From an uncultured Veillonellaceae bacterium (lineage in GTDB: Bacteria > Bacillota > Negativicutes > Selenomonadales > Selenomonadaceae): DNA of 64,000 nt. A program made the position numbers and the translations under genes. Where the stretch lies: NCBI GenBank assembly GCA_902785705.1, contig CACZZN010000004.1:1-64000 (forward strand), written 5' to 3'. Numbering within the stretch: the stretch's first letter is position 1; each line of letters begins with the position of its first letter. Of the stretch, positions 33,519 to 55,260 are shown piece by piece. The notes beneath the pieces were generated by a model that did no database searches, had not been told where the DNA came from, and saw nothing but the letters and a program-made list of their open reading frames with translations.

Positions 33519-33739
33519 TTCACGCCATGGCGCAGGAGCAAACCCTGCAGAGCGTCCAAGTTCTTGAAATTCTCTGCATTAAGCTCCGTCCCGTCGATGG
33601 AAAGATCAAACTCCTCCTCCAAAGCAGCTATGAGCCGCGTGAGATCAAAGGAATCAATCAGACCGTCGGCAAAGAAGTCCTGACTTGTCTCATAGTCAAA
33701 CTGAGGGTGAATTTCTTGAAGGATCTCTAAAAGTTTCAT
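33515..33739 (-). CDS. Acyl carrier protein
   Basis: A 74-aa carrier protein. The phosphopantetheine-accepting Ser is in FADGLIDSFDLTRLIAALEE (DSF in place of the usual DSL). ATG at 33739 has GGGGAGA upstream; the open frame from 33844 is an artefact of overlap with the ligase gene. Placed between AMP-ligase and KAS III, it is a dedicated carrier and not the housekeeping AcpP. Confidence 0.88.
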   Translation of the reverse strand: MKLLEILQEIHPQFDYETSQDFFADGLIDSFDLTRLIAALEEEFDLSIDGTELNAENFKNLDALQGLLLRHGVK

Positions 33740-33756
33740 AACGACATTCTCCCCTG

Positions 33757-37148: not shown

Positions 37149-39983
37149 TCAGCCGTTTCTCCCATGCCGATAGAAATCCAGCACGTTGTTCACTGCAAGA
37201 TTACAAAAAGAATCATCTATAACGTAAAATGCTTTCAAACCATCATCTAACATCCCTTCATCCAGCACAAAACACGTCATCCAATCATCTAAAAAACTCG
37301 TATCCATAGGTATATCCAATACGGATGTGCCATATGTATCCAAAACATCCTTGCAGTAGTCTAGAATTCCCACATGAATATTCTGTAGAGAGTCAATATT
37401 CTTCTGCGCGAATTCCTTTTCTCCATATATTGGAACTATTTTCTCTTTCTGACGTTCAAAATAATTCAACTGTCCCTCCGGCGATGTTAATACAGCCTCC
37501 ATCAAAAGATGATACTTATAGACACCCTCGCTAATGGTTGTAGAATCTTCATTGAAGGCAAAGCAACCTCGCATACGCTCATTAGCCAAGTTACCAAAAC
37601 GAGTCTCGCGATTCGTCGCAAAATAGTAACCGATAAAATCCTCATTATTCACAAAAAGGGATAGATAATATTGAATAGTCCCAGCATAGCCCATATCCAC
37701 CAGTGCTATTTTTTTAGAAAAATCTAAATTCAATGAATCAATATATGCTTCATATGCGTCTCTTTCTCCTTTCGCTCTATCCAAAATAGCATCCTGATAA
37801 CGGCAAACCATATCTCGAAGCAATTGTTTGTCGTACCGTCCGGGCAGTACTATGTCTTGCTGTCCATCATCGATCTCAATGCCAAACCGTACTTTAAAGA
37901 AATTCTGTATGGTACCCTCATAATGTGTTTCCAACAAAACAAATATGTCTTCTAAAGTTCGCACAGATGCCATAGTAATACTACGACGCGACGTCAGAAA
38001 GTATACAGAAGGTAACGCCGTAATATTCAGCCGCTGCACAAACATCTCATAAAGTGGTTTTAAAAAATACCCATCACGTGCCATAAAGAGAATTGCCTGC
38101 CGCTGATCACGTCGTGTTTCCTGGAACAGCCAACAAATATACGTCAACAAAATTGGACCGTAGATAACATATCCCAATTCGTAAAAACTTTTTAACTTTT
38201 TCTGTCCCTTATTTTCATGAAAGAGGAATGGATTGTCAAAATGTTTCCAGAGTATGGTTCCCAATAGTATTGATCCCCAAAGACTCATATTTCTTCCACG
38301 ACGATGCAATAAATAACTGCCGAATCGTGTCAACGAAAAAAGATTCATTGATGACATGATATGATAAGAGTCCAATCCGTAATCCACAGGTCTTTGCCAA
38401 TCGGAAACCTCGTTATCTCCAATGTGAATCATCCTTTTTTTCATGCCATCATCGACAAATTTTTTCCATATAGCGCCTGTGTCTTTTCGTAATCCTGTTT
38501 CCGATGAAAGGTATAACTCATCATACCCTTGAATGCCGTATTTGGTGAGGACTCTCTCCATCTCTTTTTTTGTCAAATACATATCCGACGTGAGGATTAC
38601 CCTTTTGCCCGAATTGCAACATGTTTTAAACCATTGCAACATCTGAAGACGAGGTGTCATTTGCTCCAACTCGGTTTCCACCTCTAGCCCACGTATTTTT
38701 TCACAAATATCGCTTGACAATCCGGTGACTTTTGCAAATTCTTTATAGATTTCATTCAAAGAACAATCCTGATTTTCTGAAAGTTTCTGTCTAGCCGCAA
38801 GTTCTGCCTCTAATCGACATCTCGAAAAGTCTATATGGATACCTAATTTTTTTTCGACATTCAACCCAATGAGATCATTCACAAAAGAAGGAGAGGAAAT
38901 TTTTCTCATGATTAACGTATCAAATATATCAAAAGAAATCACATCGAAACTTAAAACAAAGTCGATATCTCTTGCTGAACGGGAAAAATACTGCCCCATA
39001 TTTTTTGTTCCGCAGTTCATCGTATACGTGCCTGTAGCAACATCAGCCTCGTAATAATCCATTCCTTCATCCATCGTCAACAAAACCAAGGTACGTTCTA
39101 CAGCATGAGCCAATGTTCCGTCTGTCTGTCCCTGCTCTTCAGGGAAATCATCAATACTAATGCCTGACGAAAAAAGACGCCGTATGGCCTTTGAACGAAC
39201 CCAAAACATAGTCCCAGCAGAAAAGTCAAAATATTCTGTTGTGTTTGGAGCCACGTTTAACCTTACCAAAAGTTCCATGCCAATGGGATAATTTGACATC
39301 CATGTGAACGCTACATATGGCATGCTGGCAACCGGACGTGGGTAAATCAGTCCTAAATTCTCGTTTTCCATGAATTCACCGAATATTTCCCGGAGCCACT
39401 CCTCACTCCCGAACAGTCCCTCCAACAGATAATTTCTCCATTCTTCCTGTTCCGTTCCCGTGTAATAAGATTTTTTCGAGTGAATATGAGCTATAAAATC
39501 GTACTGACTCAGTAAATCAGCAAATCCTACGATGAAAGGGGCAACATCGCGTCCTCTGTTGGGAACAACACGAACGATGCAACGCTGTAAGTGTGGGATA
39601 CGAGAAAAATATTCTTCTACAAAAGTCTTCTTTTTTTCATCGACAATAGAAACCAATAAATCAAAGTCAAATGGCATATTTTTTAAATATGTGAAAAACT
39701 CTTCCGCCAAGTCTATATAAAAAAGATGCAATTGGACTCCGATCCTACCTGGCTGTTCTATTTGCTTATGTGAAAATCTTCCACGCTTCTGTACAAGAGT
39801 TCCCGCCGTAAACCCCTCAAGTCCATATTTGGTATTGTACCAAATATGATACATTTGCGTGTCTTTTAATGCAAATGAAAAAATAGAATAAAACTTATCC
39901 TTCATATAAGTACGTGTCGGGGCTCCCACAGGCAGATAGCGATAGCAAGTTTTCAATGCATACAAGATCTGTTGTTTCAGCAT
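37149..39983 (-). CDS. RgpF (rhamnan synthesis) - HAD fusion protein
   Basis: A 944-aa multidomain protein. Residues ~50-330 match rhamnan synthesis protein F (RVVPNRGRDVAPFIVGF, FIAHIHSKKSYYTG, FSAGTMFWVRSKA). Residues ~355-570 form a HAD-like phosphatase domain (SFDIFDTLIMRK, LTSDMYLTKKEM, HIGDNEVSDWQ). The last ~350 residues are the extra region often following such HAD domains (FMARDGYFLKPLYEMF). The likely job is glycosyl transfer onto a rhamnan-like glycan with a phosphatase or phosphotransfer step. ATG at 39983 has GGGGGG upstream and overlaps the preceding gene. Clearly AT-richer than flanking genes. Confidence 0.85.
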   Translation of the reverse strand: MLKQQILYALKTCYRYLPVGAPTRTYMKDKFYSIFSFALKDTQMYHIWYNTKYGLEGFTAGTLVQKRGRFSHKQIEQPGRIGVQLHLFYIDLAEEFFTYLKNMPFDFDLLVSIVDEKKKTFVEEYFSRIPHLQRCIVRVVPNRGRDVAPFIVGFADLLSQYDFIAHIHSKKSYYTGTEQEEWRNYLLEGLFGSEEWLREIFGEFMENENLGLIYPRPVASMPYVAFTWMSNYPIGMELLVRLNVAPNTTEYFDFSAGTMFWVRSKAIRRLFSSGISIDDFPEEQGQTDGTLAHAVERTLVLLTMDEGMDYYEADVATGTYTMNCGTKNMGQYFSRSARDIDFVLSFDVISFDIFDTLIMRKISSPSFVNDLIGLNVEKKLGIHIDFSRCRLEAELAARQKLSENQDCSLNEIYKEFAKVTGLSSDICEKIRGLEVETELEQMTPRLQMLQWFKTCCNSGKRVILTSDMYLTKKEMERVLTKYGIQGYDELYLSSETGLRKDTGAIWKKFVDDGMKKRMIHIGDNEVSDWQRPVDYGLDSYHIMSSMNLFSLTRFGSYLLHRRGRNMSLWGSILLGTILWKHFDNPFLFHENKGQKKLKSFYELGYVIYGPILLTYICWLFQETRRDQRQAILFMARDGYFLKPLYEMFVQRLNITALPSVYFLTSRRSITMASVRTLEDIFVLLETHYEGTIQNFFKVRFGIEIDDGQQDIVLPGRYDKQLLRDMVCRYQDAILDRAKGERDAYEAYIDSLNLDFSKKIALVDMGYAGTIQYYLSLFVNNEDFIGYYFATNRETRFGNLANERMRGCFAFNEDSTTISEGVYKYHLLMEAVLTSPEGQLNYFERQKEKIVPIYGEKEFAQKNIDSLQNIHVGILDYCKDVLDTYGTSVLDIPMDTSFLDDWMTCFVLDEGMLDDGLKAFYVIDDSFCNLAVNNVLDFYRHGRNG

Positions 39984-39993
39984 GTTCATCCCC

Positions 39994-41568
39994 CTATTTC
40001 TTCCAACGTCGAACCATCTGACCAATCTGACGTAAAGGTTTTGTACAACGCCAACTTGTTGATTGTCTCATGACCTGAACCTCGTTCTCCATCATTTCAA
40101 GTTGACATGTTGTTTCTTCTAACTGGCGGTTTTTTTCTTCTAACTGGCGGTTTTTTTCTTCTAACTGGCGTTGGATATCTTCCTTTTGACGGTAGACTTC
40201 CGTTGCAAATATCATTCCGTCAGGATAGCTCATTTCTCCCGATATCCTTATATCCAAATCACCTGAAAAAATCCCACGTACTTCATACATGGGATTTCCA
40301 TGATAAAAGAAATCTTTGCCACCTTCTTCATGCAATCCATTGTTTGTGCACGTCATTTCCTTTCCATTGACCAGAAAAGAATTTATCCAAACCTCAACCA
40401 TGTGTCCTTTCTCGGGAGCAAAACCTAGTGCCACTGTCCCATCAGGTACCTGCAATGCAAATGAAATAAGAAAAGTATGGTTTTCATAAATATAGCATTC
40501 TCGCTGAACACTCAACTGCCCCTGGTATCCTTGTCCTATATCATAAAAAAGAGCCATATGAGCCACATGCATATTTTTTCGCATTCCAAAACAATCCACT
40601 GCCCCGGCATCTGTCCAAAAATCCTGACAAGTATATGATTTCTGACTACATGAGTTGCAATCGGCAGAAACGTTCAATATGTTTTCCAAGAGATGCAAAC
40701 CGTAAAAGCGAAATACGGGGATATCCGATTCTAGAAATCTTTTCCCCAGAGCCAATCTGATATCATTTCCTACAATATATTTTTCATAATCAGGAAACAC
40801 CTGACAGAACATGCCTTTTGAAAGATTTGCATAAATTCGTGCAATATGCACATATTCATATTGACGTCGCAAAGTATTTTCCATACTTTCCGCACTCACA
40901 TTCTCATCTTTTTGGTTTTGGCGTAACCGAAATCGGATCAGTGTTTCCGGCATAATGTAAAGTTCTTCTTTCCCCGCCAAAAGGCTCACCCACATAAAAA
41001 AATCAGGAAGCTGCCTCATGCTTTCCGGTGGTATCATTTGGTGTTTTACATACATCTCCCTCCGTATCAGGAGACTTGGATGGCAGAAACAGTTGGGATG
41101 GTCAAAAAAATATCTTAACCATTCTATGCAGCTTCGATTGCCTTGACGGAACACTTCTTTATAGAAATTTCCATCCTCCAACTCGTGTACGCAACTATTC
41201 TCATCAATGAAACTCGCCCAAGCAAAACAAGCCGCATATTCCTTATGCTCATCTAGGAACACAACCTGCTTCTCCAACTTATCCAATTCCCACACATCAT
41301 CTGAATGGTGTATCGCCACATATTCTCCTTGAGCAGCGTAAAACGCCTCTTTTGCCGCTTCCGCCGGCCCCCTGTTCTCCTCATAGAGAAACGCCTTAAT
41401 CCTCTCATCTCGAAATGACCGTATGATATCCGCGCTCCCATCCGTGGAACCGTCATCGAAAATCAGCAATTCGAAATCCCGGAAGGTCTGATTCAGGACG
41501 CTTTCTATCGCCTCCGCCACGTAGGGCGCATGATTATAGGAAGATAAGATAACGCTCACCTTCGGCAT
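39994..41568 (-). CDS. Family 2 glycosyltransferase with C-terminal coiled coil
   Basis: A 524-aa protein. The GT2 domain covers about residues 1-230 (VSVILSSYNHAPYVAEAIES, FDDGSTDGSADII, HHSDDVW). A middle region of ~230 residues is unassigned beta-rich sequence, possibly a carbohydrate-binding domain. A coiled coil follows, made of three heptads RQLEEKN encoded by a 21-bp tandem repeat. The end is basic (RRWKK). ATG at 41568 follows GGAGTG. Overlaps the RgpF-HAD gene. Confidence 0.85.
   Translation of the reverse strand: MPKVSVILSSYNHAPYVAEAIESVLNQTFRDFELLIFDDGSTDGSADIIRSFRDERIKAFLYEENRGPAEAAKEAFYAAQGEYVAIHHSDDVWELDKLEKQVVFLDEHKEYAACFAWASFIDENSCVHELEDGNFYKEVFRQGNRSCIEWLRYFFDHPNCFCHPSLLIRREMYVKHQMIPPESMRQLPDFFMWVSLLAGKEELYIMPETLIRFRLRQNQKDENVSAESMENTLRRQYEYVHIARIYANLSKGMFCQVFPDYEKYIVGNDIRLALGKRFLESDIPVFRFYGLHLLENILNVSADCNSCSQKSYTCQDFWTDAGAVDCFGMRKNMHVAHMALFYDIGQGYQGQLSVQRECYIYENHTFLISFALQVPDGTVALGFAPEKGHMVEVWINSFLVNGKEMTCTNNGLHEEGGKDFFYHGNPMYEVRGIFSGDLDIRISGEMSYPDGMIFATEVYRQKEDIQRQLEEKNRQLEEKNRQLEETTCQLEMMENEVQVMRQSTSWRCTKPLRQIGQMVRRWKK
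40113..40172. repeat. 21-bp tandem repeat encoding coiled-coil heptads
   Basis: TTTCTTCTAACTGGCGGTTT recurs with a 21-bp period starting at 40113, 40134 and 40155; the third copy diverges at its end. Each unit is one heptad of the glycosyltransferase coiled coil, so copy-number change would keep the frame. Confidence 0.85.
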
Positions 41569-41590
41569 TTGTATCACTCCATATTTCTAT

Positions 41591-42386
41591 CTATTCGTAC
41601 TTATTCCTATCGGCAATAAACAAAATGTCAGGACGCCTTCCGCTCCATCCGTGCATGCTTCCCATATGGAAGGCATCTACAACTCTCTCCCTTGAGATCA
41701 TTTTGCTCAGAGCCGCAATGCATCCTGCCCACGCCAAACCCTGCCAACAGGACATTCCGAAGCATTTGTGAGGCCTGCTTTCGCAAAACATCTTCTAACC
41801 CGAAAGGAACAGTGTCAGACACCGTATTTCCGATTTTTTCTATATCATTGTGGAAGGGCGCGTCCATAAGTCCGCATTTTTTGCGCACGTACTCCAACAT
41901 GAATTCATTTGCTTGATGGAAAACGCAATAATCCAAATCCTTTCGTTCCAGTCCTCCCCTGTCCAGCACCCAATCCACCACTGTCGGTACCTCCCGTAAG
42001 GTGAAATAGGTGATGGCTGTCCCATCCATGTAGACTCATATTTCGACCGCGTATTTCCCCGTTCATCCATCTCAAACACTTCCGGATTCTCTCGCGGCAT
42101 ATTGCGGCTGCCACCCACGGGGATATACGGTTTATCGTACTGAGCACCGTCTGTTCCGAACACAAAAGAATGCAAGAAAGGAGTCTCTGTCTCCTCCCCC
42201 GCAATATAAGTTGCCGTCGCTCCATCTCCGAACAAAGGATGTATGCTGTGATTCTGTGGGTTGATCTTCTCATAAACACTGGATATCAACAGCAGCACAT
42301 GCTGTGCCATGCCTGTCCCGATCAAGCCCTTGGCCAACGACAGTCCATAGCAATACCCTAAGCAGCCGAGACTGTAATAGAGCTAC
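41591..42386 (-). pseudogene. Decayed second KAS III gene
   Basis: Three frames joined give a FabH-like enzyme closely similar in layout to the one at 32496: YYSLGCLGYCYGLSLAKGLI, PLFGDGATATYI, then after a shift near 42,030 YFTLREVPTVVDWVL, FHQANEFMLEYVRKKCGL and IGNTVSDTVPFGLEDVL, then after a second shift near 41,740 WAGCIAALSKMI. The N-terminal ~110 residues are missing; the sequence upstream of ~42,386 is unrelated and carries a repeat relic. At least two frameshifts and a 5' truncation make it non-functional. Confidence 0.85.
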
Positions 42387-42480
42387 ATCAAGTTTTCGCT
42401 GACGCAGTCAGGCGGGATTTGGGCAAGCCAAATGGCTAAGTCATTTTTCGACAGTTCCTTAATCGTTATGCAGCATGTTC
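42376..42480. repeat. Relic of the MITE-like family
   Basis: TAGAGCTACATCAAGTTTTC and then GCTGACGCAGTCAGG resembles the GAGCTACGTC...CTGACGCAGCATGACAG core of the element at 11982. TCATTTTTCGACAGTTCCTT, continuing AA, resembles its ends. The terminal repeats are no longer clear. It sits at the broken 5' end of the KAS III pseudogene. Confidence 0.4.
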
Positions 42481-42754: not shown

Positions 42755-43480
42755 TTACGCCAGATATCCGCCATCTATGATGAAGTTTGCACCCGTTATC
42801 CATCTTGCACGATCACTCAAAAGGTAAAGTATCATACCGACAGCATCCTCCGTACGTCCGCTGCCCAAAGGCGATGGCGGCACATCATTCTCCGTGTCAC
42901 GCGTCATCCCCGTCTCGATCCATCCCAAACAGACACTGTTGACCCGCTGCCCCTTCACTGCCAATTCCTGGGCTGCCGTCCTGACCAACGACTCAACTGC
43001 AGCCTTGCTTGCCGCATAGATGCTGAGCCCCTTCTGGCCTTTTTGGGCACTGACGGAGGAAATAAAGACATGCGAAAATCCCACTTCATGATATTTGCGT
43101 TTCCAGAGGAGTTTCAAAAGCGCCTCCCCCGCCCAGAGATTCACATCCATGACCCTTTTCGCCTGCTCGTGATCCCAGACATTCACGGGAAGAAGGACTG
43201 CCATCCCTGCCGAATGCACACATCCGGAGAGTTTTCCGTGTTTTGCCACAAACGCCGTCACAACCTCTTCCACGGTAGCAAGATCCGTCACATCTGCCTT
43301 CATGGGAACCCAACGCCCCGGATACTCCTCTGTCAACTCGTCAGATTCCGGGAAATGGCGTGCGATCCCCATCACTGTAGCACCAGCCTCCAAAAGTTCT
43401 CTGGCTGTTTCCCTGCCGATTCCGGAGGATGCGCCTGTCACCAGTAAGTTCTGTCCGCTGAAATCAAAAGTTACGTTCAT
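42755..43480 (-). CDS. SDR-family reductase (FabG-like)
   Basis: A 241-aa short-chain dehydrogenase. The cofactor motif is TGASSGIGRETARELLEAGA, the Ser is in FISSVSAQKG, and the catalytic Tyr/Lys are in IYAASKAAVE; SGANFIIDGGYLA closes the fold. The usual NNAG reads HSAG. Start ATG overlaps the stop of the KAS III gene (ATGA at 43477-43480). With KAS III and a carrier protein it would reduce a 3-oxoacyl-ACP to 3-hydroxyacyl-ACP; this is inferred from context. Confidence 0.88.
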   Translation of the reverse strand: MNVTFDFSGQNLLVTGASSGIGRETARELLEAGATVMGIARHFPESDELTEEYPGRWVPMKADVTDLATVEEVVTAFVAKHGKLSGCVHSAGMAVLLPVNVWDHEQAKRVMDVNLWAGEALLKLLWKRKYHEVGFSHVFISSVSAQKGQKGLSIYAASKAAVESLVRTAAQELAVKGQRVNSVCLGWIETGMTRDTENDVPPSPLGSGRTEDAVGMILYLLSDRARWITGANFIIDGGYLA

Positions 43481-44511
43481 GTCTCCACATACCTCATGAT
43501 TTCCGTATCGCGTAACGATACATATGCCGTTGCAGCCGTGAGCCCCACACCGAATCCACAAAGAATAACATTATTTCGCTTTGTTCTCTGATGATCTCCA
43601 TACAACGCAGAAAGAAGCAATGGTATGGAAGCGACACTCGTATTACCAAACAGCGCGGCTCCAAATGGCATTTTAGAAGAAGATAACCCCATTCTTTGTG
43701 CAATCGTCTCAATTATGAGTTTGTTGGCCTGATGAAGGGCAAAAATGTCAATTTCTTCCTTTGTTAGACCCAATTCCTGTAGGATGTTCTCTAACATAGG
43801 AGGAACAACCTCTAAAGAAAACGTCATAATCTCGGCACCATCCATATGCAGCTTGGAATTACATGTAGCATCCTTTTTACTTGGCACAAAATCCTCTGCC
43901 TTTAATCCGATTCCGATAGCGGCTGGAATCCAAAGTGTCTGATATCGGCTTCCGTCTGCATAAAACGAAAATGCCCATTTGTCTGCCCCGTTTTCAATCA
44001 ATGAAACCGCTGCCCCATCACCAAAAACATACCTTGTAGATCGGTCATTCGGATCCGCATATCTTGTTGCCGTATCACCCGTGCAAAGCAATATCCTATT
44101 TAATCCCGCACCTATCAATAATGCTGACTGAAATAAGCCATAAACAAATCCTGGACAGCCATGATTGATATCAAATACCAGAACATCATCTCTTAACCCT
44201 AAGCGCGACTGCAAAACAACGCTAGTTGACGGCACTATATAGTCCGGTGTTTGTGATACAAACACGATAGCATCAATGCTGTCTACTGAAACGCTCAATC
44301 GTCGCATCAACGCACTTGCCGCCACTGCACAATAATCCGCCGTTGTTTTTCCATCTTCAGCAACACGAAATTGTTCGAACCCTGTACTTCTGATCATTCG
44401 CTTGAGATCATGATCTGAAATATTCCCCATATCCTCTGCACGCACCACTTTCCGTGGAACTGCCGCGCAGATTCCTCGCACACTCACGCCACTCACTGCC
44501 AGCAAGAACAT
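43477..44511 (-). CDS. KAS III-like condensing enzyme (third copy in the locus)
   Basis: About 344 aa. The triad is complete: Cys in NHGCPGFVYGLFQ, His in LHQANKLIIET, Asn in FGNTSVASIPLLL. QTPDYIVPSTS and GDGAAVSLIE are typical FabH-like segments. The start is ambiguous (ATG 44511 close to GAGGTG, or TTG 44505 better spaced). It lies 2-5 bp after an acyl carrier protein gene and overlaps the SDR gene, so the three are co-translated. More distant from the copy at 32496 than the decayed copy is. AT-rich. Confidence 0.87.
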   Translation of the reverse strand: MFLLAVSGVSVRGICAAVPRKVVRAEDMGNISDHDLKRMIRSTGFEQFRVAEDGKTTADYCAVAASALMRRLSVSVDSIDAIVFVSQTPDYIVPSTSVVLQSRLGLRDDVLVFDINHGCPGFVYGLFQSALLIGAGLNRILLCTGDTATRYADPNDRSTRYVFGDGAAVSLIENGADKWAFSFYADGSRYQTLWIPAAIGIGLKAEDFVPSKKDATCNSKLHMDGAEIMTFSLEVVPPMLENILQELGLTKEEIDIFALHQANKLIIETIAQRMGLSSSKMPFGAALFGNTSVASIPLLLSALYGDHQRTKRNNVILCGFGVGLTAATAYVSLRDTEIMRYVET

Positions 44512-44515
44512 CACC

Positions 44516-44731
44516 TCACTTCTTGTTTATGATGTCATACAAATCTTGAAATGTCACAGCTTCCTTGAAATCAGACATTTTCATAATTTTTCCGTATTCC
44601 ACATTCACCATCGCTAACGTACTTACGACACTCAGCGAATCCCATTCTTCAATAGAGTCCAAACGTGTTTCCGGCTTGAGTTCCTGTTCCGTATCTAAAA
44701 TATTTCTTATATTTTTCAAAAAATTTTCCAT
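44516..44731 (-). CDS. Acyl carrier protein (second in the locus)
   Basis: A 71-aa carrier with the phosphopantetheine Ser in IEEWDSLSVVSTLAMV. Acidic helices on both sides are typical. It is the first gene of the ACP-KAS III-SDR trio and lies 17 bp after the NeuD-like gene. Confidence 0.88.
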   Translation of the reverse strand: MENFLKNIRNILDTEQELKPETRLDSIEEWDSLSVVSTLAMVNVEYGKIMKMSDFKEAVTFQDLYDIINKK

Positions 44732-44748
44732 TGTACTCTCCTAATCAA

Positions 44749-45390
44749 TTATTTCTGGTAGCTTTTCGCTGGGACACCTGTAACAAAAGAGTTTTCCAAT
44801 ACATTACGTGCCACAAAAGAGTTTGCAGAAACACAGCTTTTATTTCCAACAAGTAGCCTTGGTGCGATAGTTGCATGCGTACTAATAAAACATTCTTCTC
44901 CTATTTTTGCATATCCCCCGATTGCAGCAAACGGACAAATCACTGTATAATCCCTTATTTCAGCATCATGCCCAATCGTCGCCATTGCGTTTATGAGACA
45001 AAAATCCCCTACTTTAGCATTTGCACTGAGACCTGCAAACCTATACAAAATAAGTCCTTCTCCCCATACAGCACTACGAAAGCATACTGCTTGCGGATGA
45101 ATTAAAGAAATAAATTTTGCTTTTCTGCGTTTAAGTATCTCAGCCACTTTTTTCCTTCCATCAACATCCCCTATTGCAAGCAAAAATCGATCATTTTCTT
45201 GAACATCATAGTCCCGAATCGTTCCAACAATATCTGCATCTCGTCGTATCTCAGGATATGCGTCCAAATCCGTCGGTATGTCTGACAAGAAACCTTTGAT
45301 TCTATACTCTTCCGGCGAATATGTCTCCAATGCCATCTCATAGACTTCACGACCACATCCACCTGCACCTACGATCACAACGTCAAACAT
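44749..45390 (-). CDS. NeuD/PglD-type sugar acyltransferase
   Basis: A 213-aa enzyme. An N-terminal Rossmann-like domain (VVIVGAGGCGREVYEMAL) precedes a left-handed beta-helix (INAMATIGHDAEI, ICPFAAIGGYAKIG, STHATIAPRLLVGNKS) with the catalytic His in IGHDAEI. Relatives N-acylate 4-amino-4,6-dideoxy-sugar nucleotides (PglD, VioB-like) or O-acetylate sialic acid (NeuD). With DegT, ACP, KAS III and SDR around it, N-acylation of an amino sugar is the better guess. Clear ribosome-binding site GAGAGGGAACG. Confidence 0.85.
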   Translation of the reverse strand: MFDVVIVGAGGCGREVYEMALETYSPEEYRIKGFLSDIPTDLDAYPEIRRDADIVGTIRDYDVQENDRFLLAIGDVDGRKKVAEILKRRKAKFISLIHPQAVCFRSAVWGEGLILYRFAGLSANAKVGDFCLINAMATIGHDAEIRDYTVICPFAAIGGYAKIGEECFISTHATIAPRLLVGNKSCVSANSFVARNVLENSFVTGVPAKSYQK

Positions 45391-45448
45391 ATCGTTCCCT
45401 CTCCATTGAACAAACTAAATTTATAACACATGGTATAACTTCAAATAA

Positions 45449-46549
45449 TTACACAGCGTATAAAACCGTTTCTAAAAAATGTTTTGGATCATAATGTCTG
45501 AGATAGAATTTATAGTCCATGTTCCACTCTTGTATCTTCCTTTGGATGGCAAAGATATCTTCCGGCCTGTGATAAACACAAATAGCCAAAACAGGACGAT
45601 CGCGATGAATGATTCCTTTTGCCCCATCCAAAGCCTTCATCTCTGCTCCCTCTATATCCATTTTAATCATGGTGACTTTTCGCGGATCCGTCAGCAACTC
45701 CTCATCGATTGATGTACATAACAGCTTTTTCGTACCTCCCCCGCTAACCTCGATTAAACTGCTGGGACCATGCCCGGATGAAAAGGATAATTCCTCCCTC
45801 CTGTCCCACACTCCACGTTCAACATATCGAACACGATTATCATATTCTTTTAAATTCTTTTTTGTAAGTGCCATATTATCCGCATCTGCCTCAAAAATCA
45901 CAGACGCAGACTTCTCACTTGTCAGCATGAAAAATCGCTTCGTGTCCATTCCATCATATCCGCCACAGTCTATAAAAAGTTTTTGTTCGTCAAAATCAAC
46001 CAGTTCTTTTTCAAAATATTGACCTTCCTGCGAAAGGCCTTCAAAGAAACGCCTATCCCCACTGATTCTGGTGTTCAAGTATGCCAGAAAGATCTGCTTA
46101 GAAAGATCATCCTGCAATGCCTCGTATGCTATTGTAAGCTCTGCCGCATACTCTTCATAATAATGTCGTGGTACATAAGACAGTTCTCCCAAATGCACAG
46201 CACCAAAGAAAATCTCATAATCCAAAACACGATCTACTACTTGCTCATACGGCTTCAGTCTTTCTGCATCAAAAAAACCAAACGCAACAATAACGTCGAC
46301 TTTTCCTCGCACATTGTCTAAAACATCTTCCAAAGGCTTCACTTCATAGGGACCGAGTTTCATTCCTTCTTTATAGAATTCGCGATCCACCACGACATAT
46401 GCCGGTGAGATACGTTGTGTTTTCAAGTATTCAGTCACCCGTTCTGCCCCGAGAGCTGCGCCGTATACCACAATGCTTTGCCCATGATAATTCTTTATGT
46501 AATTCAAAAACTCGCAGTCTTTGGCTTCCACCAGTTGCATCACATTCAC
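45449..46549 (-). CDS. FkbM-family methyltransferase
   Basis: A 366-aa SAM-dependent methyltransferase. An N-terminal ~150-residue region has a nucleotide-fold look (SIVVYGAALGAERVTEYL). The C-terminal FkbM domain carries LFIDCGGYDGMDTKRFF, FEADADNMALTKKNL and TMIKMDIEGAEMKAL. It probably O-methylates a sugar of the surface glycan. AT-rich; 59 bp upstream of the NeuD-like gene in the same direction. Confidence 0.87.
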   Translation of the reverse strand: MNVMQLVEAKDCEFLNYIKNYHGQSIVVYGAALGAERVTEYLKTQRISPAYVVVDREFYKEGMKLGPYEVKPLEDVLDNVRGKVDVIVAFGFFDAERLKPYEQVVDRVLDYEIFFGAVHLGELSYVPRHYYEEYAAELTIAYEALQDDLSKQIFLAYLNTRISGDRRFFEGLSQEGQYFEKELVDFDEQKLFIDCGGYDGMDTKRFFMLTSEKSASVIFEADADNMALTKKNLKEYDNRVRYVERGVWDRREELSFSSGHGPSSLIEVSGGGTKKLLCTSIDEELLTDPRKVTMIKMDIEGAEMKALDGAKGIIHRDRPVLAICVYHRPEDIFAIQRKIQEWNMDYKFYLRHYDPKHFLETVLYAV

Positions 46550-46662
46550 AAGAAATCCTCCCTACTTCCGCAAATCTTCCTCGCATCACCCTCTGACAGT
46601 CATTCCGTAGTGCAAAGGGTCGTTTCTCAACGAATTTATTGCACCAATTTCCATTTTCTTGC

Positions 46663-46899
46663 CTACGCCTCAGTCAGAACATACACCTCCGCATTCCAAA
46701 CTTTCATGGTCGCATTCTCTCTGTCAAAACATCTTGCATAAGAGGGCACCATTCCGGCTGGTATTCCTTCACAATCGGAAGGCAGATTATCTTGGGGCAA
46801 TTGTGAAGTATATTCGCCAGATCGCTTCAAAATTTCTTCGACAAACTGATTATCATTTCCACGTCGGTGCAACTCCAATGTCTTAAGCACTGCATACAT
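46663..46899 (-). CDS. Unrecognised short reading frame in a 490-bp gap
   Basis: A 78-aa frame (starts MYAVLKTLELHRRGNDNQ, includes CFDRENATMKVWNAEVYV) with a weak GGGAAG ribosome-binding site. The sequence has normal protein character but no family I know. It could be the remnant of a larger gene, since the flanks 46,550-46,662 and 46,900-47,042 contain nothing recognisable. Confidence 0.3.
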   Translation of the reverse strand: MYAVLKTLELHRRGNDNQFVEEILKRSGEYTSQLPQDNLPSDCEGIPAGMVPSYARCFDRENATMKVWNAEVYVLTEA

Positions 46900-47042
46900 T
46901 GCTTCCCGCTGTTATTGTTGCTGATTAGCAAATTGATAGCACCCATTTGATTCTACTCAACATCTCTATGCATGCCGAAATACTGCATATGTACCTTTTC
47001 TAACACGCTACTCCTGTCCTTCCTCCTGCAATTTACACATTC

Positions 47043-48212
47043 TCAGTTCCGAAAGCTCTTCAATATCCCGCAAATCTTCCTCGCATCATCCTCCGTCAAA
47101 CCTCCGTACATGGGCATGGAAAGCACCTCTCTTCCTACTTTGACCGCAACGGGAAGCTTTTCCGGCGCCGCGGAAGAAAGCTGTCGATAGCAGGTAAATT
47201 CACTGCAAAGAGGATGAAAATATTTTCTGGTAAAGACATTGTATTCCTTGAAATGGTCATAAACATAGTCACGAGAGCGACCAAATTTCGTTTCATCGAT
47301 ACGAATAACGTAATATTGATGATTGAGACGAATATTGTCCTCCACCTTCGGCATCAATGTAATTCCGGGAACATCTCCCAGTTCTTCATCGTAAATCTTT
47401 CCCAAGGCGATCCGTTTTTCCCGCTCCTCTGCCATATAGCCCAACATAATGCGTCCGATGGCAGCCTGCACTTCATTGAGTTTCCCGTTGATACCCGGCA
47501 TGACCACTTCTTCTTCATTCTTGATACCAAAGTTTTTCAAAAGGTCAATGCGTTCCTTGAGATGCTTGTCCTTGTGCATCAACGCTCCGCCTTCCACCGT
47601 ATGGTAGAGCTTCGTCGCATGGAAGCTCATCATGGAAATGTCGCCGAAGGTTCCAATGCCTTTTCCGTCGACCTCCACCCCGAAGGCATGGGCTGCATCA
47701 TACACCACACGCAGACCGTATTTGTCCGCCACGGCTTGGATCTTCTCCACATCGCAGGGCGTACCAAATACATGGACGGCAAGGATGGCCGTGGTCTGAG
47801 GCGTAATCATGAATTCTATTTGGTCGGCATTGATATTCATCGTCACCGGATCGATATCGCAGAAAATCGGTCGGATATTGTTCCATGAAAGCACATGAGG
47901 CGTCGCCGCAAAGGTAAAGGGCGTCGTGATGACGTCCCCTGTCAGCCGAAGGCTCTGACAGGCCACCATGAGAGCGATGGTCCCATTGTTGAACAGGGAG
48001 AGGTAGGGCACCTTGAGATACTCCGTCAATTCCTCTTCCAGCTTGTGATGCTGAGGGCCATTGTTCGTCAGCCACTGCGCCCGCCAAATATCCTCCAGCT
48101 TCGCCGTCACTTCCTCGATCTTCGGAAAAACGGGGCGTGTGACATAGATAGGGGCGGGAAAAGGTTCCACGTTTTGTTTAATCCGTACACATTGTTTCAC
48201 AGTGTCAATCAC
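47043..48212 (-). CDS. DegT/DnrJ/EryC1 sugar aminotransferase (VioA-like)
   Basis: A 389-aa PLP enzyme. PIYVTRPVFPKIEEV, WLTNNGPQHHKLEEEL, LFNNGTIALMVACQSL and ITTPFTFAATPHVL match aminotransferases acting on dTDP-4-keto-6-deoxyhexoses. The PLP Lys is in SFHATKLYHTVEGGAL, with the Asp in YDAAHAFGV. Likely product: dTDP-4-amino-4,6-dideoxyhexose, from the keto sugar that RmlA/RmlB in this locus can provide. GTG at 48212 has AGGAGG eight bases upstream. Confidence 0.87.
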   Translation of the reverse strand: MIDTVKQCVRIKQNVEPFPAPIYVTRPVFPKIEEVTAKLEDIWRAQWLTNNGPQHHKLEEELTEYLKVPYLSLFNNGTIALMVACQSLRLTGDVITTPFTFAATPHVLSWNNIRPIFCDIDPVTMNINADQIEFMITPQTTAILAVHVFGTPCDVEKIQAVADKYGLRVVYDAAHAFGVEVDGKGIGTFGDISMMSFHATKLYHTVEGGALMHKDKHLKERIDLLKNFGIKNEEEVVMPGINGKLNEVQAAIGRIMLGYMAEEREKRIALGKIYDEELGDVPGITLMPKVEDNIRLNHQYYVIRIDETKFGRSRDYVYDHFKEYNVFTRKYFHPLCSEFTCYRQLSSAAPEKLPVAVKVGREVLSMPMYGGLTEDDARKICGILKSFRN

Positions 48213-48280: not shown

Positions 48281-49600
48281 TCAGTGACATCTCATTATAG
48301 AAACATCGTTATGCCAATGCACATAACCATACAAATGCCGCATTGGATCTGTAATCACAGAAAATTGAACTGCACATGGAACAAAATCACAGAAGTCCAC
48401 CTTTCCAATAGTTATATCTAAAGGAATCGATGCGACTGCTGCAACATTATAATTCCCTTCCTGCAAGTCTACATGAAACTTCCAGTCAAGAGCATAGCAT
48501 CCCCCTGCCTCTGCTGAAAAAATGGGCAATCGATCCAGTCCCGTATCAGAGTACACAACCTCTACCCCGCTCGCACTGCGGATATGATAGGCAAATCCCA
48601 ATATCGGAATATCCTCATAAACCTGAAATGCATACCTCAAACATACCTTTTGTCCGCACTCCACCTGAGATATTTCTTTCCCCTGTTCATTCAGCAACTG
48701 CACATTAAGAAACTCAACTTTACCATTTTGGGTTCTATCATAGGTTGCTTTTTCCAAAAAGGCGGCATTATCACCATACCATATCCCATCTCTCTGCTCG
48801 GTTGCTTCACTTTGCAAATCGACGTGAACTTCTTGCACCGAAGGATTATCTATCACCTTTTGCTCCGAACGAACTTTTGCCGCAAAATATTTTTCAATCG
48901 TTTCCTTGCTAGCTCCATCGAAGCTTACCTTCCCCTGCTCCATGAAGATCCCTCTTTGACATAGGCTGCGCACTGCGCCGGTATCGTGACTGACAAACAG
49001 AACCGTCACGCCGTCATCCAGCATGTGTTTCATTCGATCCATGCACTTCGCTTGAAAGAACGCATCCCCCACGGAAAGTGCTTCATCCACGATCAGGATA
49101 TCTGGTTCCACGAAAGCATTGACAGCGAAGGCCACACGAGCGAACATGCCGCTGGAGTACATCTTCACCGGCTGATGGATGAATTCCCCGATATCAGCAA
49201 AGGCGATGATGTCATCCACCCTCGCATCCATCTCTTCCTTGCTGAGTCCCATCACCACGCCGTTCATGTAGATATTCTCCACGCCCGTCATCTCGGGATT
49301 GAAGCCGGCTCCCAACTCCAGCAGAGACGCAATCCGCCCGTGTACCTCCACCGTCCCGGCCGTCGGTGTCAAGACCCCTGTAATGACCTTCAGAAGCGTG
49401 GATTTCCCGGCGCCGTTCTGGCCGATGAATCCTACGGTCTCCCCTTTCTTGATGGAAAGGTTGATATCCCGCAACGCGTAAAAATCCCTACTGTATCGCT
49501 TGTGAAAGGGCAGAAGCGCCTCCTTCAACCGATCCACGGGGCGGTCATACAGCCGATATACCTTGGAAAGATCCCTGATCTCGATTGCTAGTTCTTCCAT
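48281..49600 (-). CDS. Polysaccharide ABC-exporter ATPase with Wzt C-terminal domain
   Basis: A 439-aa protein. The ATPase domain (about 1-240) has Walker A GQNGAGKST, the Wzt-type signature YSSGMFARVAFA, Walker B ILIVDEALS and the switch His in FVSHDTG. The C-terminal ~180 residues are a Wzt-type beta-sandwich that in relatives binds the modified non-reducing end of the glycan and so sets chain length. This fits a locus that makes acyl or methyl decorations. It lies 15 bp after the permease gene. Confidence 0.93.
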   Translation of the reverse strand: MEELAIEIRDLSKVYRLYDRPVDRLKEALLPFHKRYSRDFYALRDINLSIKKGETVGFIGQNGAGKSTLLKVITGVLTPTAGTVEVHGRIASLLELGAGFNPEMTGVENIYMNGVVMGLSKEEMDARVDDIIAFADIGEFIHQPVKMYSSGMFARVAFAVNAFVEPDILIVDEALSVGDAFFQAKCMDRMKHMLDDGVTVLFVSHDTGAVRSLCQRGIFMEQGKVSFDGASKETIEKYFAAKVRSEQKVIDNPSVQEVHVDLQSEATEQRDGIWYGDNAAFLEKATYDRTQNGKVEFLNVQLLNEQGKEISQVECGQKVCLRYAFQVYEDIPILGFAYHIRSASGVEVVYSDTGLDRLPIFSAEAGGCYALDWKFHVDLQEGNYNVAAVASIPLDITIGKVDFCDFVPCAVQFSVITDPMRHLYGYVHWHNDVSIMRCH

Positions 49601-49615
49601 TCATTCTCCACCTAT

Positions 49616-50425
49616 TTACAACATATCCGCAAAATGAGGCCGCATGCGCTTGAACACAAAGGCACCCACGAAAAGTATCGCGGCGGTGATTCCCCAGAAG
49701 TATATCGTCATATACAGGTGCTGCCAGAACCACTCATGGTAAATGAAGCTCTGGCGATAGCCCTCGATAATGTAGTAGGCAGGATTTAGTTTCAAGATTA
49801 TCTGATATTGAATCGGTATCATGTTTAAACTCCAAAAGATGGGCGTTCCCCAAAAGGCCAACTGCAGAATCAGCGACACGAACTGACCCACATCCCGCAG
49901 GAACACCGTCAGGGCCGAGGTGAGCCAAGAAATTCCCAAACACAGGCAGAACATCGCTCCCGCATAGTACAGGAATTGAACATTGTAGATGGACACCGTA
50001 TACCCATACACGGCGAACATCAGGAAAATGACCCCCACGAAAAAACCATGTACAATAAACGCGGACATGAGCTTCACCATGGGCAGGAGTTCCACCCGGA
50101 ATACGACCTTCTTCACCAGGAAGCTGCTTTCAAGGATGGCATGAGTCGCTCCCATCAGACTGTCCGAAATGAAGAACCACGGCACCATGCCGCAAATCAG
50201 CCAGAGGATGAAGGGAAAGTTATCCACGGGCTGGGACTTGAAGCCCACCTGGAACACGAACCAAAAGACTAGGACCGTCACCGTCGGCTGGATGAATGCC
50301 CACAGGATTCCGAGATAAGAACCCACGTATCTTTGCCGAAAATCCCTCTTGGTCATCTGCCAGAGCAGCATACGATTCTTGAAAATTTCCCGTATCAGTG
50401 ATACGAGGGCACGAATATAATGCAT
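49616..50425 (-). CDS. Polysaccharide ABC-exporter permease (Wzm-like)
   Basis: A 269-aa ABC-2 type membrane protein with six helices. It includes WQMTKRDFRQRYVGSYLGIL before helix 1, and ILESSFLVKKVVFRVELLP in the first cytoplasmic stretch. Partner of the downstream Wzt-like ATPase; exports undecaprenyl-linked glycan. ATG follows GGGAGGG. First gene of the minus-strand glycan operon, with its own promoter. Confidence 0.93.
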   Translation of the reverse strand: MHYIRALVSLIREIFKNRMLLWQMTKRDFRQRYVGSYLGILWAFIQPTVTVLVFWFVFQVGFKSQPVDNFPFILWLICGMVPWFFISDSLMGATHAILESSFLVKKVVFRVELLPMVKLMSAFIVHGFFVGVIFLMFAVYGYTVSIYNVQFLYYAGAMFCLCLGISWLTSALTVFLRDVGQFVSLILQLAFWGTPIFWSLNMIPIQYQIILKLNPAYYIIEGYRQSFIYHEWFWQHLYMTIYFWGITAAILFVGAFVFKRMRPHFADML

Positions 50426-51531: not shown

Positions 51532-51567
51532 TATTGTATGCAAAATTTCTATGCGGAGGTGCTTTTC

Positions 51568-52446
51568 TTGGTAAAAAAAGGTATCATACTGGCCGGCGGC
51601 TCCGGGACGCGCCTTTACCCGTTGACCATGGTCGTTTCCAAGCAGCTCATGCCGGTCTACGACAAGCCGATGATCTACTACCCTTTGAGCGCGCTCATGC
51701 TTGCGGGGATCCGCGATATTCTGGTCATCACGACGCCGCAGGATCAGGAACTCTATCGCACGCTCCTGCAGGACGGTCATCAGCTGGGGCTGAACATCTC
51801 ATATACGGTTCAGCCGAGCCCGGACGGGCTGGCGCAGGCCTTTTTGCTGGGAGAGGATTTCATTGCCGGTGACAGCTGCGCTCTGGTGCTGGGCGATAAT
51901 ATCTTCTATGGCTCGGATTTCGCCAAGGCAGTCCAGCAGGCTGCCGCACATGACGAGGGGGCCACGGTCTTTGCCTACTATGTGAGCGATCCGCAGCGTT
52001 ACGGCGTGGTGGAGTTCGACAAAGAAGGAAATGCCTTGAGCCTGGAGGAAAAACCGAAGGAGCCGCGCTCCAATTATGCGGTCACGGGATTGTATTTTTA
52101 CGACCATGATATTGTGGATGTGGCAAAATCCATCCGTCCGTCCGCGCGGGGGGAATTGGAAATCACGGATGTGAACCGTGTCTATCTGGAGCAGCACAAG
52201 CTCCGCGTACAGAAGATGCGCCGCGGCTATGCGTGGCTGGATACAGGGACCCATGAATCCCTGCTGCAGGCTGCCTCCTTTGTGCAGACCATCCAGGCAA
52301 GGCAGGGGCTCAAGATCTCCTGTATTGAGGAGATTGCCTTTCGCATGAAATACATTGACGCAGAGCAGCTTCTGCGCTTGGCTGAACCCCTTGCAAAAAA
52401 CGAATACGGACAGTATCTGCAGCGGCTGGCCAAAGAACACGGCTGA
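51568..52446 (+). CDS. rfbA: Glucose-1-phosphate thymidylyltransferase RmlA
   Basis: Makes dTDP-glucose from dTTP and glucose-1-phosphate. The 292-aa protein has [34 protein letters not shown] and [13 protein letters not shown] at 51568 has GGAGGTG upstream and gives the family's N-terminus ([10 protein letters not shown]); the ATG at 51538 lacks a site. First of three linked dTDP-sugar genes. Confidence 0.95.
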
Positions 52447-52463
52447 AGAAAGGAACGATACGA

Positions 52464-53030
52464 TTGAAAGCAACAGAAACCAATCTGAAAGATGTCTACG
52501 TACTGGAGCCGCAAGTATTCGGCGATGCCCGCGGCTGGTTCATGGAGAGCTGGTCCCTGCGGAAAATGGAAGAGGCCGGAATCCATGTGGACTTCGTGCA
52601 GGATAACCAGTCCTTCTCCGCAACAAAGGGAACGCTCCGCGGGTTGCATTACCAGCTCAATCCCATGTGCCAGGCAAAGCTCCTGCGCTGCACGAAGGGC
52701 AGCATCCTGGATGTGGCGGTAGACATTCGCAAGGGTTCTCCGCAGTATGCCCAATGGACAGCAGTGGAGCTTTCCGCCGAAAACAAGAAGCAGCTTTTCA
52801 TCCCGCGTGGCTTCGCCCACGGGTTCCTGACCCTCACGGACGACGTGGAAGTTCAGTACAAGGCGGATAATTACTATGCGCCGGAATGCGATGGCAACAT
52901 CCGCTGGAACGACCCTGAAATCGGCGTGAAATGGCCCTTCGATCCTGTCATTTTGTCGGAAAAGGACGAGAAGGCGCCGCTTTTGTCGGAGCGTACCAAT
53001 CTGAATTTTATCTATGAGGAGATGCGGTAA
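52464..53030 (+). CDS. rfbC: dTDP-4-dehydrorhamnose 3,5-epimerase RmlC
   Basis: A 188-aa cupin-fold epimerase. The catalytic His/Tyr region LRGLHYQLNPMCQAKLLRC, then VDIRKGSPQYAQW, and FIPRGFAHGFLTL are intact. Start TTG at 52464 has AAGGAACG upstream. Its stop overlaps the rmlB start (TAATG). RmlD, the last rhamnose enzyme, is not in this window. Confidence 0.94.
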   Translation: MKATETNLKDVYVLEPQVFGDARGWFMESWSLRKMEEAGIHVDFVQDNQSFSATKGTLRGLHYQLNPMCQAKLLRCTKGSILDVAVDIRKGSPQYAQWTAVELSAENKKQLFIPRGFAHGFLTLTDDVEVQYKADNYYAPECDGNIRWNDPEIGVKWPFDPVILSEKDEKAPLLSERTNLNFIYEEMR

Positions 53031-54073
53031 TGAATATTGTCGTAACAGGCGGCGCCGGATTTATCGGCGCGAATTTCGTATACTATATGCTCAAGCAGCG
53101 TCCGGCAGACAAGATCATCTGCTTTGACAAGCTGACCTATGCCGGAAACATGGCGACTCTGGATAAGGCGATGACCAAGGAGAAATTCAAGTTCATCCGG
53201 GGGGATATCGCAGATCGCCAGGCCGTAGACAAACTGTTCCGTGATGAAAAGCCGGATATCATCGTAAATTTTGCCGCAGAAAGCCACGTGGACCGCTCCA
53301 TTGAGGAGCCTGAGCTGTTCCTGCGCACCAATATCCTGGGCACCAGCGTGCTGCTGGATGCCTGCCGCAAATACGGCATTGACCGATATCATCAGGTCTC
53401 GACGGATGAAGTCTACGGGGATCTCCCCTTGGATCGTCCCGACCTCTTCTTCACGGAGACAACGCCCCTTCACACCTCCAGCCCCTACTCCGCTTCAAAG
53501 GCATCGGCAGATCTCTTGGTGCAGGCTTACAGCCGCACCTACAAGATTCCCGTGACCATCTCCCGCTGCTCGAACAACTACGGACCGTTCCACTTCCCGG
53601 AAAAGCTCATCCCCCTCATGATCATCAATGCACTCCATGACAAGAAGCTTCCGGTCTATGGAAAGGGAGAGAACGTGCGCGACTGGCTCTATGTAAAAGA
53701 TCACTGCTCGGCAATCAACCTTGTGCTCACCAAGGGGAAAGCCGGCGAGGTCTACAACATCGGCGGGCACAATGAGCGCCGCAACATCGATGTGGTAAAA
53801 ATCATTCTGAAGGAGCTGGGAAAGCCTGAAAGCCTCATCGAGCATGTGGAGGACCGCAAGGGCCATGACCGCCGCTATGCCATCGATCCCACAAAGATCA
53901 AGAACAATCTTGGCTGGGAGCCTGAGACAAAGTTCGAGGACGGCATCAAGCAGACCATTCAATGGTATCTGGAGCACAAAGATTGGTGGGAAAATATCAT
54001 CAACGGAGATTATCAGAATTATTACGATAAAATGTACGGCAACCGTCAGACCTTTGAATATGCTTCGATTTGA
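53030..54073 (+). CDS. rfbB: dTDP-glucose 4,6-dehydratase RmlB
   Basis: A 347-aa extended SDR producing dTDP-4-keto-6-deoxyglucose. The NAD motif is VTGGAGFIGANFVYYML, with STDEVYGDL and the catalytic Tyr/Lys in PYSASKASADLLV. The product feeds rhamnose synthesis and could also be the substrate of the DegT aminotransferase at 47043. Confidence 0.95.
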   Translation: MNIVVTGGAGFIGANFVYYMLKQRPADKIICFDKLTYAGNMATLDKAMTKEKFKFIRGDIADRQAVDKLFRDEKPDIIVNFAAESHVDRSIEEPELFLRTNILGTSVLLDACRKYGIDRYHQVSTDEVYGDLPLDRPDLFFTETTPLHTSSPYSASKASADLLVQAYSRTYKIPVTISRCSNNYGPFHFPEKLIPLMIINALHDKKLPVYGKGENVRDWLYVKDHCSAINLVLTKGKAGEVYNIGGHNERRNIDVVKIILKELGKPESLIEHVEDRKGHDRRYAIDPTKIKNNLGWEPETKFEDGIKQTIQWYLEHKDWWENIINGDYQNYYDKMYGNRQTFEYASI

Positions 54074-54123: not shown

Positions 54124-55260
54124 TTATCTCTCTGCTGCCTTTTCCAGCGCCGCCTTCACGATATCGTCCATATCATAGTAGCGATACTCCGCCAAGCGTC
54201 CCAGCAGCGTCAGGTTCGGCACATTCTTTGCCTTCTCTTGGTACTCTGCATACATCGCACGCTTTTCCTCCGTAAAAATCGGATAGTACGGGGTATTCTC
54301 CCCCTTGACATAGGGCTGGGGGTACTCCTTCAAGATTGTCGTACAGCGCGCATCCGCCGGATGGATTTTCTTGAATTCCGTAATCCGCGTAAAGGCATAG
54401 TTATTTGGATAGTTGACCACCGCAGCCTCCTGATAGCTCTCCTGCTCCACCGTCTCGAAGCTCATCCGCAGGCTGCGATACGGAAGCTCCCCCAGCTCAT
54501 AATCGAACAGTTCATCGATCATGCCTGTGTAGATGACGGTTCCATGGAACGGCTGATCCAGGAAGAATATCCGGTTCTCCCTGATGCTCATGATATCATG
54601 GAAGGAGGTATTCAGCATCAGCTTGATGCTCGGATGGTTCAGCATTTTCCGGAAAAGCTTCGTATAGCCGCGCTTCGGCACCCCTTGGAACCTATCGTGG
54701 AAATATCGCGTGTCCCTGCCGACAAACACGGGAACACGGGCGGTAACTGCGCCATCGATTTCCTCCGGCTTCATGCCCCACTGTTTTTCCGTATAATGCA
54801 GAAAGATTTTCTCGTATACAAAATCCGCCAGATACTGCAGATCCTTGTTTTCCGACTGCTTCAGCTGCAAAATGGGAACCTTTGCGTTATAGGCATAGCT
54901 TTCCAGCAGGGCCTTTTCCATGCGCTGCGCCATGGATTCCGGGAAAACCTCATGCAATGTGTCTAAGTTGAAGGGAATCGGAACCTTTTTCCCATCAATG
55001 ACTGCCAGCACACGATGCTGATAGATGTCCCACTCCGTGAAGCGTGACAGATATTCCCATACATCCGCATCATCCGTATGGAAAAGATGGGGACCGTAGG
55101 TATGAATCAGAATGCCGTTCTCATCCCGCATATCATGGCAGTTCCCCCCGATATGGCTGCGCCGCTCTACGACCAGTACCTGCCTGCCCTGCTCCGAAGC
55201 CAGCCGCTCTGCCATGACCGCTCCCGCAAAGCCTGCGCCGATTATGATTACATCAAACAT
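54124..55260 (-). CDS. glf: UDP-galactopyranose mutase
   Basis: A 378-aa flavoenzyme that converts UDP-galactopyranose to the furanose form. The FAD motif FDVIIIGAGFAGAVMAERLA starts the protein. ERRSHIGGNCHD, HTYGPHLFHTDD and NYPNNYAFTRITEFK follow, all conserved in the family. The glycan therefore probably contains galactofuranose. Monocistronic between two terminators. Confidence 0.95.
   Translation of the reverse strand: MFDVIIIGAGFAGAVMAERLASEQGRQVLVVERRSHIGGNCHDMRDENGILIHTYGPHLFHTDDADVWEYLSRFTEWDIYQHRVLAVIDGKKVPIPFNLDTLHEVFPESMAQRMEKALLESYAYNAKVPILQLKQSENKDLQYLADFVYEKIFLHYTEKQWGMKPEEIDGAVTARVPVFVGRDTRYFHDRFQGVPKRGYTKLFRKMLNHPSIKLMLNTSFHDIMSIRENRIFFLDQPFHGTVIYTGMIDELFDYELGELPYRSLRMSFETVEQESYQEAAVVNYPNNYAFTRITEFKKIHPADARCTTILKEYPQPYVKGENTPYYPIFTEEKRAMYAEYQEKAKNVPNLTLLGRLAEYRYYDMDDIVKAALEKAAER

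Follow-up and report, generated by a model that had tools for sequence, protein, structure and literature searches.

Why should a locus for polysaccharide export carry a small fatty acid module of its own? The question is raised by 64,000 nucleotides (nt) of DNA from an uncultured Veillonellaceae bacterium (contig CACZZN010000004.1; the whole stretch is hereafter called the window). Behind the genes of the exporter Wzm/Wzt, a single run of intact minus-strand genes encodes a DegT aminotransferase, an FkbM-family methyltransferase, a NeuD/VioB-type acyltransferase, an acyl carrier protein (ACP), a β-ketoacyl-ACP synthase III (KAS III), and a short-chain dehydrogenase/reductase (SDR). An original prediction held that this cassette makes a 4-amino-4,6-dideoxyhexose bearing a 3-hydroxybutanoyl amide and an O-methyl group, possibly as part of an exported polymer. 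With gene identities assigned from Pfam, NCBIfam cut-offs, PDB matches and motifs, a product of the type N-(3-hydroxyacyl)-4-amino-4,6-dideoxyhexose is well supported as a prediction from sequence and analogy. The fuller reading, in which an acylated viosamine-type sugar would cap a rhamnose-containing chain, be read by Wzt, and be exported with the chain by Wzm/Wzt, is judged reasonably probable.

Organization of the Cassette

The minus-strand genes begin with Wzm, the ABC-2 permease of a polysaccharide exporter (49616–50425; PF01061), and Wzt, which joins an ATPase (PF00005) to a C-terminal sugar-binding domain (48281–49600). These are followed by DegT (47043–48212; PF01041), FkbM (45449–46549; PF05050, TIGR01444), the left-handed β-helix N-acyltransferase NeuD (44749–45390), ACP (44516–44731; PF00550), KAS III (43477–44514; PF08541/PF08545), and SDR (42755–43480; PF13561), a putative 3-oxoacyl reductase that falls under the FabG equivalog cut-offs. 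The end of NeuD lies 17 nt from ACP, a single nucleotide separates the ACP stop from the KAS III start, and KAS III and SDR overlap by 4 nt (ATGA), which bears out the translational linkage of ACP, KAS III and SDR that had been proposed. The adjoining NeuD/PglD, FkbM and DegT genes were also correctly recognized, and all are intact on the same strand; every gene named in the earlier inventory is present, although RmlC, a KAS III pseudogene, and a second acyl module with an AMP-ligase had been missed. The DSL serine of ACP, the YxxxK and glycine-rich motifs of SDR, and both domains and the Cys-His-Asn triad of KAS III are conserved. At 186 bits against a cut-off of 292 for FabH (TIGR00747), the cassette KAS III is classed as a glycan-type enzyme and not a housekeeping FabH. 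A KAS III search of the source genome (E ≤ 1e-25; assembly 82% complete) returned only two genes, both in the window, and no separate housekeeping FabH, which may simply be missing from the assembly.

Among 150 related genomes searched, the nearest KAS III is that of the uncultured Veillonellaceae bacterium RUG11858 (CACYDT010000018.1; loci L029/L063). The cassettes share the order Wzm-Wzt-DegT-NeuD-ACP-KAS III-SDR, with identities of 82% (Wzm), 78% (Wzt), 85% (DegT), 74% (NeuD), 62% (ACP), 55% (KAS III), and 69% (SDR); that of RUG11858 differs in lacking FkbM and in having, after SDR, a second, intact KAS III, followed by a family 2 glycosyltransferase (GT2). Chance grouping of these genes is of no concern, because their order recurs in another genus at 55–85% identity.

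Sugar Precursor and Parallel Systems

Upstream of the cassette, on the plus strand (51538–54073), lie RmlA (51538–52446; TIGR01207), RmlC (52464–53030; TIGR01221), and RmlB (53030–54073; TIGR01181), all over their cut-offs. The presence of RmlA and RmlB in the same locus had been pointed out previously, and both exceed equivalog thresholds; together they would supply deoxythymidine diphosphate (dTDP)-4-keto-6-deoxyglucose. The same precursor is probably also converted to dTDP-rhamnose, since RmlC is found in the window and a strong RmlD match on another contig of the same genome. DegT would aminate the 4-keto sugar at C4 to give a viosamine-type dTDP-sugar. Its best NCBIfam model is DesI (315 bits, with 650 required for the equivalog), and its best PDB match is likewise DesI (2po3, 247 bits; next match, 170 bits). 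The product of DesI is dTDP-4-amino-4,6-dideoxy-D-glucose, or dTDP-viosamine. The original description of DegT as VioA-like thus holds at the level of the family but not beyond it, the best model being DesI and its score far under the cut-off.

For the acyl group, KAS III would condense an acetyl starter with malonyl carried on the dedicated ACP, SDR would reduce the resulting 3-keto group, and NeuD would transfer the 3-hydroxyacyl chain from ACP to the amine of the sugar. The chain is most likely 3-hydroxybutanoyl (C4). This chemistry, as first proposed, is the best reading of the cassette because of parallels in Pseudomonas syringae and Flavobacterium psychrophilum. The viosamine island of P. 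syringae comprises vioA, vioM, vioT, vioS (KAS III), vioB, vioR (3-oxoacyl reductase), and acp; deletion of vioA, vioB, vioR, or vioT removes modified viosamine from the non-reducing end of the rhamnosyl flagellin glycans, while deletion of vioM removes the methyl alone (PMC3927599). Compared as functional gene sets, the two loci share aminotransferase, methyltransferase, KAS III, NeuD/VioB, 3-oxoacyl reductase, and ACP, and rhamnose is part of the P. syringae glycan. The linked aminotransferase, NeuD/VioB, ACP, KAS III, and 3-oxoacyl reductase that characterize such an island are all found in the window, and the parallel drawn in the original prediction therefore stands gene for gene at the functional level (vioA/M/B/acp/S/R). 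A product with a 3-hydroxybutanoyl amide and a 2-O-methyl group is a further hallmark of the P. syringae type. In F. psychrophilum, strains whose O-polysaccharide carries a 3,5-dihydroxyhexanoyl amide defined by nuclear magnetic resonance possess an ACP, two different synthases, a reductase, and a PglD-type acyltransferase (PMC6519341). The likeness to these wfp genes (wfpC, wfpD, wfpE, wfpF, and wfpG) lies in the use of ACP, KAS, reductase, and PglD-type acyltransferase for a hydroxyacyl amide. F. psychrophilum, however, has two synthases, a C6 dihydroxy acyl group, and a uridine diphosphate (UDP)-linked 2-acetamido-4-amino sugar (Qui2NAc4N), whereas the window has one intact KAS III in the cassette and a predicted dTDP-linked 4-amino-4,6-dideoxyglucose (Qui4N). 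A literature search on 3-hydroxybutyryl together with Qui4N returned nothing on point.

The P. syringae sugar belongs to a flagellin trisaccharide with no linked Wzm/Wzt, in contrast to the window, where the cassette adjoins the exporter. That analogue, and the several flagellin-domain proteins encoded in the source genome, would fit a sugar destined for a protein (flagellin or an S-layer protein) and not for an exported polysaccharide. The flagellin genes are on other contigs, however, whereas Wzm/Wzt and a WbaP-type priming sugar-phosphate transferase (30610–32025, minus strand; TIGR03022 over cut-off) share a locus with the cassette, and the RUG11858 locus also holds an O-antigen ligase-family gene; a protein-linked destination is thus very improbable.

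The N-Acyltransferase

NeuD scores 167.2 bits against TIGR03570 (cut-off 160.8), keeps the catalytic His141, and has VioB (7txp) as its best PDB match. Its active-site motif is GHD, and the residue preceding the catalytic His was compared among 79 NeuD-type proteins, those within 1.5 kb of an ACP or KAS III being counted as module-linked. This residue is Gly in 43 of 44 module-linked proteins versus 16 of 35 others (Fisher p ~7e-8, to be taken only as a guide, since kinship was ignored and part of the set was gathered with a profile seeded by the window NeuD). The remaining unlinked proteins have Asp, Glu, Asn, or Ser at this site, Asp or Glu being usual. Among solved acetyltransferases the corresponding residue is Ser (VioB), Asp (PerB), or Glu (PglD), and in the acyl-ACP-dependent enzymes of the same genome it is Gly (LpxD, IGHN) or Ala (LpxA, VAHN). 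The window NeuD thus shares Gly-before-His with LpxD.

The solved near relatives VioB, PerB, and PglD are all acetyltransferases by name, and NeuD could accordingly be an ordinary N-acetyltransferase beside an ACP, KAS III and SDR that serve another acylation. Such a division of labor is improbable, given the short distance from NeuD to ACP, the recurrence of this linkage across phyla, and the active-site Gly that sets module-linked NeuD proteins apart from most unlinked ones. Together with the two KAS III clades described below, Gly-before-His may make it possible to predict, from sequence, the use of acyl-ACP and the length of the acyl group in glycan loci not yet explored.

KAS III Enzymes and Acyl Length

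A tree of 141 module KAS III proteins and five housekeeping FabH proteins contains two deep module clades, A and B, with support of ~0.95. Cys and His of the triad are present in all module proteins and Asn in all but one. At one alignment column all five housekeeping FabH proteins have Trp, which is absent from the residues of the module KAS III proteins there; the column is presumably the position that stacks on coenzyme A in E. coli FabH, and the starter may be bound differently in module enzymes. The cassette KAS III belongs to clade A. Clade B includes a second KAS III of the window (32496–33518) and the intact RUG11858 orthologue (locus L029) of a pseudogene that follows the cassette on the minus strand (~41685–42382). 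The pseudogene is 66–73% identical to the RUG11858 copy and has lost its 5' third, with a stop codon and two frameshifts in what remains; a simple sequencing error was rejected as the cause, since lesions of three or more kinds are present. Part of the junk sequence at the pseudogene's 5' end (42340–42430) recurs elsewhere on the same contig (L048, 5221–5295).

When loci are sorted by KAS III content, 29 have one clade A and one clade B enzyme, 18 have two of clade A, and 43 have a single clade A enzyme. The simple reading is that clade A would start the acyl chain and clade B extend it, giving C4 in the window and C6 in RUG11858. This contrast is only tentative because an intact clade B copy is encoded nearby: ~10 kb from the pseudogene, on the minus strand, a second acyl module (32496–35268) combines the clade B KAS III with its own ACP (~33512–33739) and AMP-ligase (33757–35268). 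For the same reason, it is not a main claim here that acyl length follows from the number of KAS III genes alone. The AMP-ligase resembles DltA or the adenylation domains of nonribosomal peptide synthetases, and the module adjoins the WbaP-type enzyme; a like trio of AMP-ligase, ACP and KAS III, 47–68% identical, occurs in locus L044 (14047–15272 plus the ligase).

Should this clade B enzyme act in trans after the cassette KAS III, the acyl group would be longer than C4, for example 3,5-dihydroxyhexanoyl. The 29 loci that pair the two clades, the C6 product of the two-synthase F. psychrophilum system, and the intact clade B gene within the same locus are all consistent with this alternative; it is nevertheless unlikely, since the clade B gene of the cassette itself is a ruined copy, and the intact one comes with a separate ACP and AMP-ligase. 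A C4 chain is accordingly still preferred. The 3-hydroxybutanoyl group was, however, put too firmly in the original prediction: the small-acyl module is present, but the exact acyl is less certain in view of the related cassette with two KAS III genes and the F. psychrophilum precedent.

Coupling to the Wzm/Wzt Exporter

Wzt, as had been noted, carries a C-terminal domain (PF14524, Wzt_C; E 1.3e-20) and adjoins Wzm, an arrangement of the carbohydrate-binding-domain exporter type. In Aquifex aeolicus WzmWzt, this domain reads the modified chain end of a rhamnose-rich O antigen (PMC9445017). The cap there is a 3-O-methyl mannose or rhamnose, whereas the one proposed here is an acyl-amido sugar. 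A literature search for end-cap precedents in Bordetella returned nothing on point. By analogy, a glycosyltransferase would add the acylated sugar to the non-reducing end of a rhamnose-containing chain, the Wzt domain would read this cap, and Wzm/Wzt would then export the finished chain.

Comparison with relatives bears on this proposal. For Wzm, the Wzt ATPase domain, the Wzt C-terminal domain, DegT, and NeuD, in that order, identity to the window is 82, 85, 74, 84, and 74% in RUG11858, where the acyl module is present, and 77, 78, 47, 82, and 49% in a further relative, G050, whose locus is without ACP, KAS III and SDR. RUG11858 and G050 compared with each other give the same 77, 78, 47, 82, and 49%. 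The Wzt C-terminal domain and NeuD thus diverge together, with the genes around them holding at 77–85%, and because the domain is flanked by two conserved stretches, its drop in identity does not mark the border of a single exchanged block. This joint divergence, the A. aeolicus precedent, and the end position of the sugar in P. syringae suggest that the acylated sugar is a chain-end cap read by Wzt. The export link made in the original prediction is likewise supported by the joint divergence and by Wzm/Wzt synteny in the second genus.

The acylated amino sugar might instead be a regular part of the repeat unit, or a side branch, with the Wzt domain recognizing something else. Acylated Qui2N4N of F. 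psychrophilum is such an in-chain sugar, and the window yielded no VioT-like capping transferase. This placement is rather unlikely, since divergence between genera affects the Wzt domain and NeuD jointly but spares the flanking genes, and the closest functional analogue, that of P. syringae, has its sugar at the non-reducing end.

Several points weigh against an acylated viosamine-type cap. The joint divergence is essentially one contrast, G050 and another relative, G028, being close to each other. Both keep DegT and a GHD-type NeuD with no linked ACP, KAS III or SDR, and the module is therefore not obligatory there. The DesI equivalog cut-off was failed, so the sugar made by DegT is not fixed by sequence; with RmlC and RmlD, the common precursor probably feeds rhamnose as well; and both the product and the enzyme activities are predictions from the genes.

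If the cap reading is true, NeuD and the Wzt domain would form a writer/reader pair. A stronger version, in which the N-(3-hydroxyacyl) amino sugar is the export signal, the miniature fatty acid pathway times export, and NeuD, the writer of the cap, evolves in concert with the Wzt domain, its reader, is offered tentatively, as possible rather than probable. The locus is an acyl-amido sugar island of known type; its novelty lies in the link to a Wzm/Wzt exporter in which the reader domain changes along with the acyltransferase.

Methyltransferase and Putative Modification Slots

The O-methyl group is the weakest part of the proposal, since it depends on one gene, FkbM, that is a local insertion. 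FkbM is missing from between DegT and NeuD in three relatives (RUG11858, G050, and G028). The interval between DegT and FkbM holds ~470 nt of degraded DNA within an insertion scar (46568–47098), bounded by a 31-nt direct repeat of 90% identity (46568–46598 and 47068–47098); the DegT 3' end is thereby present twice, at a distance of 500 nt. The degraded DNA (46599–47045) has no similarity to any relative locus compared. The absence of FkbM from relatives and its position beside the duplicated DegT 3' end mark it as a recent, local insertion. The O-methylation foreseen in the original prediction is therefore less secure than stated: the gene is intact, but lies beside a recombination scar and is absent in the three relatives. 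A role for FkbM, which may add the O-methyl group as a late, local addition to the pathway, is possible because FkbM genes recur near other acyl modules of the same family.

Between Wzt and DegT, G050 encodes a 542-aa protein (locus L197, 2705–4333, minus strand) in which a radical S-adenosylmethionine-like CxxxCxxC motif was recognized by eye, and which has no counterpart in the window. The cassette seems to have variable modification slots.

Distribution of the Acyl Module

The ACP/KAS III/SDR module is itself a known and widely distributed arrangement. Related KAS III genes occur in 79 named loci spanning Bacillota, Bacteroidota, Chlorobiota, several groups of Pseudomonadota, and others. 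ACP and SDR lie within 3 kb in 57 of these loci, 36 of which also have NeuD within 6 kb; over all 79, a second KAS III is found nearby in 41, NeuD in 37, and DegT in 28. Because housekeeping FabH likewise adjoins ACP and SDR genes, NeuD and DegT are the informative neighbors. In two genomes (G012 and G078) NeuD-ACP-KAS III-SDR directly adjoins Wzm/Wzt. Acyl-amido sugars from dedicated modules were known from single cases; the module is found here across many phyla. A plasmid search with KAS III gave distant matches only (36–37% at best), mostly from Azospirillum.

Five glycan loci of related genomes (L033, L045, L046, L030, and L031) hold arrays in which two or three KAS III genes are accompanied by several ACP and SDR genes and AMP-ligases. 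Such arrays suggest several different acyl groups.

Flanking Genes

Beyond the KAS III pseudogene, the minus strand encodes a GT2 glycosyltransferase (39994–41577; PF00535) and an RgpF-like rhamnan synthesis protein with a HAD-like region (37149–40025; PF05045, TIGR01549). An open reading frame at 35366–36151 on the same strand, with no Pfam match and an apparent frameshift near its end, is probably a decayed gene. On the other side of the cassette, past RmlB, lies a gene for UDP-galactopyranose mutase (54124–55260).

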